IMG/VR virus record: IMGVR_UViG_3300032213_002319
Coordinates: 1-43,831 of that record
From: a virus
DNA: 43,831 bases
Reading direction: 5' to 3' (one strand)
Shown: in pieces, positions 17,894-30,499 of the stretch
Layout: every line of letters starts with the position of its first letter
How positions within the stretch are numbered: position 1 is the stretch's first letter
The notes under the pieces: model-generated
The model's database searches: none
What the model was told of the DNA's origin: nothing
What the model saw: only the letters and a program-made list of their open reading frames with translations
Made by a program: the position numbers and the translations under genes

Positions 17894-20800
17894 ATGCCCA
17901 ATCCTTCCGCCCCGTTGTCGTCGCCGCGTTCTCTTGCCAGCATCCCTAGCTGGGACCAAGTCGAAGCAGATCCTATCATGGCAACCTCCACGGGGGCTGA
18001 GAAGTTGGAGACGTTCAACAACTGGCGTAATGCCCTGCTTGATGCGTCCCTCAACGAGGAGGGCTCATTCAGCCGCGAAGACTTTGACCGTTTTCAAGTG
18101 TTCACCCGGCGTAAAACGGCTGAACTGGGGGGTGGAGCCACCGCCGCGCAAGACGCCGACCGGGCTGAGGAACAATATCGAGCTGAAGAAAACGCTCTCA
18201 GGGAGGCTACCCACGCAGCACTGCAACCCCGCAGCGCCTCTGCTGTGGACACAGCTATGCGCTCGGCAAACAGCTTGCTCCCGACAGGGCCGTTGAACAA
18301 CGCGGCGCTGGGTGCTGTGCAGTCGCTGACTGCGACTCCTGACGAGAGCGTCTCCAAACAGCTGCAGAAAGTCATGCAGGATGAGGACTCCCACACGGTG
18401 TTCCAAGGTCGTTTTGTGGCTAGTCCTTCGCTTGTTCTTGACCGCGATGGATACAAGAAGGCGGTCGCTGCCGCCCCGCTTTCCAAGGAGGAGAAGCTCC
18501 GCGCCTTGACCGAGCTTCCAGACCTGCGCGAAGAGGTCGCCAACCGCGTCTCCGACCAGATGCTCCAGACCGAGGGACTCTACGGAGACGGCATGATCGG
18601 CATCGGCGATGACTTCACAAAGATGCGCGACTATGAACGCTCTCGAAACCCCAACATTTCTGAAGCGGACATCGTTGAGAAGTATCGCAAAGAGAACGAT
18701 CGCTGGTGGAAAAACCCCTTGAAACAGGCCTTTGTGGGCGCGCGAATGGCGGGCAACTCGCTGATTCAGCAATACTACGGACTGAAGTCCATTGCTGGGA
18801 TGGCCGATGAAGGCGACAACGACATGTTGAACTCCACCACGCAGATTGCTTCTGATCTCTCGGAAGCGAGCAAGAACATCGGTGGGGCTACGCTCGTCGC
18901 TCAGGGCACGAAGATTGGCGTCGAGATGCTCCCCATCATGCTCACCGGTCCAATAGGACGCGGCGCTGCTGCCGTGGGCACCGGGGCGGCTCGGACTGTG
19001 GCCGGGCGGGTTTTGTTTGCAGCTACCGGACGACTCGGCGCGAACGCTGCTGTTGGGGCCACGGCTCGGATCGGCATGCAGCTGCCCAAAATTCGGACGC
19101 TCCTTGCTGAAGGGAAGACGATCCCGCAGGTGTCCAAACTTCTTGGGCTCGCTGAGGCTGAGCTGGCCCCGACGGCAACGATGCTCATGCGTGAGCAGGC
19201 GATCCACTCTGCTGGCGGCCATGCTGCGGTGGTGCTGGCCTCGGGTCTCCAATCGGCTGGGGGCTCCTACGCCGAGATCCGCGACAAAGTGCTGGGAGAC
19301 CTCACCTCGACACTCGATGCATCGGCCCCTGACTATGCTGACAAGTTGGCCGAAGCGCAGAGAAACGCGGTCGACACAGCGAAGTATCAGTCCCTCCGCC
19401 GGGGCCTTGTGACCATGGCGGTGACGGCTCTTGGCAACAAACTCGGTGGCGGCACCGGTGAAGCCGCGCTGGCTACTTCCGGGGCGGTGCGCAAATCTGT
19501 GCGAGACAGTTTCGCCGTCTACCTTTTCAAAACGATGGGCAAGGATGTGGTGCCCGAAGCCATCGAGGAAGCCTCTGATTCTTTGGTGAACGGCCTCGTG
19601 GACAAGCTGACCTACGATCCCAACCGGTCGTATGAGGACATCGCCAAGGACACCGTGGAGTCCGGCGCATGGGGCGGGTTCATGGGTGGCGCTATGGGCG
19701 GCCTGAAAGCCGTCTCGCAATACTCAACGCTGAAGCAGCAGGCTCTGAAGTCTGATGCTGTTCAATCTTTGCTGGCCACTCGTGATGGGCTCCAGTCCTC
19801 GGGGTCCCCACAGATGGCGGCTGCGATGACGGATCTCGCTGAAAAAACTGCTGACGCACGGGCAAAGGCTGGCATGGCTGAAGCTGCCGCAGCGGAAGCT
19901 CCGGCCCCCGCTCCTGCTCCTGCTCCTGCTCCTGCTCCTGCTCCTGCTCCTGCTCCTGTTGCAAATCGCAACACCGCAACACCGCCGCCCACCACCTTTG
20001 GGGACTTCCGCACGGCGCTGATGAAGCGTGGCTACACCAAAGACGCCATCGACGGCATGACTCCGAATGCGCTGATGGCAGCCATGAACGAACCGATTCC
20101 GCTACCGAAGGCGATCTTGGCTGACGTGCCCGTGCCAACCGAGGGCGAGCGCAGCATGCGTGCGCTTCAACAAACGGTGACCCCGGAGGCTCGGGTTCCT
20201 CGTGTCGTGACATCGCCCGCTCCCCCTGTGGTTGCAGATGTCGCGCAGGGAGATAACTCCCTTGGGGCTGGTGGTGTTGCTCAGCTTCAGTCAGTGATGG
20301 CCGCCCCGGCGGCTCCAGCTGCTGAGACATCTGCTGAGACAGCTCCTTCACTTTCGGTCGAAGCCCAGACGGCTGTGGATGAGGCGCAAAACTCAATCCA
20401 AGCCATCGACGCTCGCTGGGCCGCCGCGACCAACGATGACGCCCGTCGCGCGCTGGAGAACGTGCGGCAGACCCATGTGGCTACGCTGGCGCGTCTGGCC
20501 CCACAGATCAGTGTGGCTCCCACAGCTGAAAAAGCTGCTGCCATCGTAGCTGCAGCCAATCCGCCACCGGCCAAGGCTCCCAAAGTCAAACCGACCAAAG
20601 CTCCTCCTGTCGAAGAAGCACCAGCGGCTGTCGAAGCGCCAGATGCGACCCCTATCGAAACTCCAGCTGCGACCCCTATCGAAGTTCCAGCTGCGGCACC
20701 TGTCGAAACTCCTGCTGCGGCACCTGTCGAAGTTCCTGCTGCGGCACCTGTCGAAACTCCTGCTGCGGCACCTGTCGAAGTTCCTGCTGCGGCACCTGTC

Positions 20801-30499: not shown

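Follow-up and report, generated by a model that had tools for sequence, protein, structure and literature searches.

We analysed a window of 43.8 kb, a linear IMG/VR record (IMGVR_UViG_3300032213_002319). It contains a giant late gene at 17894..30499 on the plus strand, a 12.6 kb ORF that opens with an ATG and encodes 4,201 aa, a putative ejected multi-domain protein of the polyvalent type. It is one of the last genes of the structural block, beyond which the coding strand switches and replication-type genes begin, an arrangement also seen in PTXU04 and similar phages. The giant gene is directly followed by that of a 207-aa protein (30525-31148) with clustered cysteines (CATCPRNQPIGGCLDC ... 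CQQCGC) and a weak match to a PHROG of unknown function. The minus-strand block to the right of the giant includes a deoxynucleoside monophosphate kinase (32202-32726, minus strand; PHROG E 1.7e-50). A promoter and terminator scan gave results near chance.

The genes of the window encode, in order, proteins of 774, 119, 405 and 403 aa, several fibre/tail proteins, and proteins of 318, 860, 303 and 4201 aa. An earlier note on this DNA had read this order as parallel to that of phage N4, in which the last gene encodes the virion RNA polymerase (vRNAP). The N4 record runs from the portal (763 aa) through gp58 (115 aa), gp57 (405 aa), the capsid (401 aa), gp55, gp54, gp53, gp52 and gp51 to the vRNAP (3500 aa), and the first four sizes are close in the two phages. 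The parallel holds in part. Tail and tape-measure-type genes do precede the giant, and terminase, DNA polymerase and integrase genes lie upstream in an overlapping contig, but the portal, scaffold and capsid candidates have no significant match in Pfam, PHROG or NCBIfam. Profiles of ten N4-like phages (Schitoviridae) likewise gave no significant match to any structural gene of the window, the best being the portal candidate (P 3.6, E 0.012). We therefore use "portal", "scaffold" and "capsid" as labels of size and position only, and by these tests the phage is not a Schitovirus. It differs from N4 both in these neighbouring structural genes, which have no detectable similarity, and in a tyrosine integrase beside the terminase.

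The overlapping contig (L002) extends the window upstream, with 100% identity over the shared stretch of the portal candidate. Its upstream genes encode a family-A DNA polymerase, a primase/helicase-type protein, the tyrosine integrase, a large terminase (PHROG E 2e-9) and a 356-aa protein. The integrase gene (L002:4161-5054, minus strand), whose sole genome match is 25% identical, adjoins the terminase gene, which suggests a temperate lifestyle.

The giant gene is conserved in a relative

Scans of viral contigs and genome contigs, one of the latter queried with the upstream integrase, yielded only one source of a second giant and of a capsid-gene homologue, the 59.8 kb contig G001, as well as the overlapping contig L002. 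Contig L013 was rejected as a relative, its match being of low complexity. G001 has the same layout as the window and its capsid-gene homologue is 74% identical. Its giant homologue, a 4,453-aa ORF, comes right after homologues of the two genes that precede the giant in the window. Their alignment spans both giants in full, with 52% identity over 4630 columns. Judged by this end-to-end conservation, the 12.6 kb frame encodes a real, selected protein. Conservation is high at residues 1-650 and 2750-4201, intermediate across most of residues 1130-2700, and low in the linker at residues 650-1120. Pieces of the giant (residues 1-1200 and ~1501-4201) found no match by tblastn among 50,697 phages, and searches of Pfam, PHROG, NCBIfam and PDB sequences with the whole giant, windows of it and two-sequence profiles gave nothing above noise.

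The first of the two upstream genes encodes a tape-measure-like or internal protein of 860 aa (14352..16934, plus strand; PHROG tape measure E 4e-9). It carries two repeats of the motif GGPV..K.YLVGE.GPEL(V/I)(V/I)P, which is also present in the G001 homologue. The second (16947..17858, plus strand), directly upstream of the giant, encodes 303 aa and has a syntenic 314-aa homologue in G001 and no family match in Pfam or PHROG; by its position only, the product could be a second ejection protein. Further upstream, a tail/fibre-type gene (9128-11641) encoding fibronectin and repeated Ig (He_PIG) domains (Pfam E 8.5e-35) sits with others between the capsid and tail genes.

Two modules of the N4 virion polymerase are matched in the giant

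The N4 vRNAP begins with an N-terminal domain (NTD) that has predicted membrane helices at residues 224-278, and continues with a linker of ~100 residues, the RNAP and a short linker (PMC12633501). Then follow subdomain C1 (residues 2124-2375), which carries an HExxH motif, and the helical C2 (PMC12633501). The NTD, part of an ejected protein, inserts into membranes in vitro (PMC12633501).

In hhalign comparisons, residues ~436-611 of the giant (19199..19726, plus strand) match this N-terminal (membrane/ejection) domain and align to N4 residues ~271-435. The whole profile gave P 54.9 and E 1.2e-4, here pairing residues ~446-606 with vRNAP NTD residues 291-435, and a score of 58 against 24 for the best of 12 shuffles. 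A profile enriched with the giants of phages CF418P1 and PTXU04 gave P 79.5, E 1.5e-5 and a score of 42, while 40 shuffles and eight other proteins of the phage all scored 24 or less. Restricted profiles of vRNAPs only gave a weaker match (P 6-15). The matches between giant and vRNAP are moderate ones built on two giant sequences, with an N-terminal P that ranges from 6 to 80 by profile. The vRNAP NTD also matches the giants of CF418P1 (E 6.7e-8) and PTXU04 (E 4.3e-5). Neither has a detectable polymerase core, and the module therefore occurs without an RNAP. Our literature search returned no paper on the vRNAP N-terminal module in polymerase-free giants.

The N-terminal module is followed by a low-complexity Pro/Ala-rich linker (19841..21253, plus strand; residues ~650-1120; up to 50% P+A) and a zincin-type metallopeptidase-like domain (21281..21853, plus strand; residues 1130-1320). 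The latter matches vRNAP subdomain C1 in hhalign with P 74.8, E 2.6e-5 and a score of 39.7, versus a maximum of 17.2 in 30 shuffles. For the giants of PTXU04 and CF418P1, too, the same site is the best match, though a weak one (E ~0.001). At residues 1190-1194 (21461..21475, plus strand) the domain contains HEGIH, a putative zinc-binding and catalytic motif that reads HEGVH in G001; the conserved E1247 may be the third ligand.

Motifs of the form H[ED]xxH occur twice in the giant, against 0.04 in shuffled sequence. The other one, HEMVH at residue 2763, stands together with EEE-x-DHLEIHRRF in a domain that is well conserved in the alignment with G001 (26021..26773, plus strand; residues 2710-2960). 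The EEE-x-DHLEIHRRF stretch (from residue 2784) is invariant, whereas HEMVH is replaced by TEWRT in G001. The earlier description of peptidase-like modules is confirmed in part: HEGIH is conserved, HEMVH is not. From its alignment to C1 (hhalign P 19, E 0.0012), residues 2710-2960 may be a degenerate second zincin.

Both similarities might be convergent, low-complexity or motif matches in a giant of a wholly unrelated class. Such a reading would draw on the Ala/Gly-rich composition, on E-values of just 1e-4 to 1e-5 and on the two-sequence query. Composition-preserving column shuffles, however, reached the observed scores in 0/12, 0/40 and 0/30 trials, the eight other phage proteins did not outscore shuffles against the N-terminal profile, and the two matches follow each other as in vRNAP, NTD then C1. 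We consider chance convergence very unlikely.

Other segments of the giant

A conserved segment at residues 1716-1860 (23039..23473, plus strand; 57% identity to G001) contains YRVL...RTEG..QV.PAQHVT...PGGTFEV.QR. By eye only, it is possibly ADP-ribosyltransferase-like; Pfam and PDB profile searches gave no support for this assignment. Residues 1900-2700 are less conserved (24-56% identity to G001). The best conserved large part is residues 3002-4201 (26897..30496, plus strand), 63% identical to G001 and predicted by AlphaFold, with low confidence, to be almost entirely helical. The C-terminal part found no match in vRNAP C2 by hhalign. Membership of the LPD38 family, suspected by eye, was rejected for the C-terminus: hhalign against 10 LPD38-type C-termini gave P <= 0.4 and Pfam was silent.

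The AlphaFold models, built on an alignment of only two sequences, had a mean pLDDT of 49.5 for residues 1128-1910 and 39.1 for residues 3002-4201 and are therefore unusable for fold assignment. A Foldseek search with the low-confidence model of residues 1128-1910 gave nothing at E <= 0.001 in PDB and BFVD.

The giants have no detectable polymerase core

The giant resembles the N4 vRNAP (gp50, Schitoviridae) in being the last product of the portal-to-tail block and in its similar size. We built profiles of the RNAP core (N4 residues ~998-2102) from ten N4-like vRNAPs in a leave-one-out design. Every held-out vRNAP was recovered (E 5e-71 to 1e-275), whereas both giants scored at noise (-9 to 0 bits). 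With hhalign, each giant region tested against the vRNAP core gave P <= 0.3. Since this defining core was tested for and is not found, the giant cannot be called a vRNAP.

Motif searches gave the same picture. All 5 vRNAPs searched have motif B (R-x3-K-x6-8-[YF][GAS]), and in four of them T-x-x-G-R lies ~240-250 residues before it. A pattern search found motif B in neither giant, the pattern not being fully specific (chance matches in CF418P1 and FGH). The [TS]-x-x-G-R pattern occurs twice in the window giant versus 2.0 times in shuffled sequence, and the occurrences are not kept in G001. The earlier failure to find T7/N4 motifs by eye is thus borne out.

Polymerases of the two-barrel type were also considered. 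In phage P23-45, gp96 joins a tape measure to a two-barrel virion RNAP, which was revealed by its DxDxD signature (PMC10770324). Like gp96, a giant virion protein with a metallopeptidase domain, the window giant is a putative virion protein with a metallopeptidase-like domain. Unlike gp96, whose catalytic motif is DFDGD, the window giant has no DxDxD anywhere, and the one in the G001 giant is not conserved. Finally, PF00940 gave no match in the window, L002 or G001 and detected the positive controls T7, N4 and LIT1. This profile does not match the N4 vRNAP itself, so its silence bears only on a stand-alone T7-type enzyme.

A T7/N4-like or two-barrel virion polymerase that has diverged past sequence recognition, an option raised in the earlier note, would explain the slot and size shared with the N4 vRNAP. 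It would also suit a phage in which PF00940 finds no other polymerase, and the structure models are too weak to rule on the fold. Nonetheless, we regard it as very unlikely on all the evidence. Besides the core-profile, hhalign and motif results, the order of the modules speaks against it: the Pro/Ala linker leads from the N-terminal match directly to the zincin match, and the polymerase that lies between linker and zincin in N4 has no counterpart there. In addition, residues 1900-2700 are not conserved in the manner of a catalytic core, and the C-terminal 1200 residues are nearly all helical in the low-confidence prediction. The alternative offered at the time, that another enzyme set occupies the ejected-protein slot, gains support instead, as the core profile finds all controls and not the giants, and the giant does match vRNAP in the N-terminal ejection module and in the zincin.

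A probable polymerase-free giant of the polyvalent type

The giant thus shares with the N4 vRNAP an N-terminal ejection module, a long linker, an HExxH zincin subdomain and a large helical C-terminal part (predicted in the window giant). It differs in having no detectable polymerase core, in a zincin that starts at residue ~1130 rather than ~2120, and in ~1,700 additional residues that separate the zincin from the helical C-terminal region.

Similar giants are known. Those of the podoviruses CF418P1 (Achromobacter, 2684 aa) and PTXU04 (Escherichia, 2197 aa) also sit in this slot, where the structural block ends, and have a zincin-type motif (HExxxH in theirs), a module matching the vRNAP NTD and no detectable polymerase core. 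Their C-termini are related to an LPD38-type protein, whereas the window giant, ~1,500-2,000 residues longer, has no detectable LPD38 match. Inspection of PTXU04, CF418P1, D274, FGH, Lederberg and Page showed giants of 1,254-3,162 aa in or close to the last position of the structural block, and that of Pag-Yong1 is already annotated "large polyvalent protein".

Polyvalent proteins were described by Iyer et al. (2017) as giant, zincin-containing proteins, with the zincin as a hub domain, that are encoded among late genes and predicted to be injected (PMC5512222). In that work the N4 RNAP is one of many polyvalent modules (PMC5512222). The window giant resembles phage polyvalent proteins in lying among late genes, on the same strand, after tail and tape-measure-type genes, and in having a zincin, the commonest but not an obligatory hub domain. 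Unlike in other members, LPDs, ART-HYD2, MuF, ParB and methylase domains are not recognised. The zincin and the N-terminal module are recognised, while the ADP-ribosyltransferase-like and second-zincin segments are only putative. From its location, size and zincin, the giant is probably a polymerase-free, ejected phage protein of the polyvalent type. Many podoviruses have giant non-polymerase proteins in this slot (PMC5512222), so the surprise is smaller than the earlier note supposed.

Alternatively, the giant could be a structural protein of the tail or head, such as a second tape measure or an internal scaffold, that is not ejected and whose HEGxH serves only to mature the virion. Its place after the tape-measure-like gene would fit, and zincins have been proposed to act in virion maturation, as in the processing of P1 DdrB (PMC5512222). 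The size and multidomain layout of the giant argue against this, as does its match to the NTD of vRNAP, a membrane-inserting domain (in vitro) of an ejected protein (PMC12633501), and we regard a purely structural role as unlikely. The likely explanation, as far as the sequence allows, is that the giant serves a podovirus-like phage as an internal virion protein, is ejected, and has the frame of the N4 vRNAP minus its polymerase core.

Packaging, ejection, membrane docking, proteolysis and reliance on the host RNA polymerase can be proposed for such a protein by analogy with N4 and the polyvalent class. The giant would be made late and packaged in the head. It could leave as a thread of loosely linked domains, before the DNA or together with it, and its N-terminal module would dock with the ejection channel at the inner membrane. 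The zincin might trim the polypeptide itself or act on host proteins, freeing the cargo domains. The first genes of the phage would be transcribed by the host polymerase.

Through the two common modules, the injected RNA polymerase of N4 is linked to a broader range of giants in phages, which suggests that they have a delivery frame in common and that the cargo is exchangeable. More tentatively, the N-terminal module and the zincin could be an old ejection chassis of N4-type vRNAPs and many polymerase-free giants, in which the RNAP is swappable; the window phage would then carry a different cargo of ~1,600+ residues from the zincin to the helical C-terminal region. By itself, the window giant adds a further divergent member to a widespread class, and its residues 1320-2700 and 3000-4201 are a concrete place to seek new injected effectors. 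The G001 giant (P0002) has an extra module at residues ~1010-1125 (IRLTHGTSGQSIRAILQSGRF...PANRIVAIYD), which was tried as an ADP-ribosyltransferase and has no family match in Pfam. This module is missing from the window giant, which suggests cargo exchange between close relatives.
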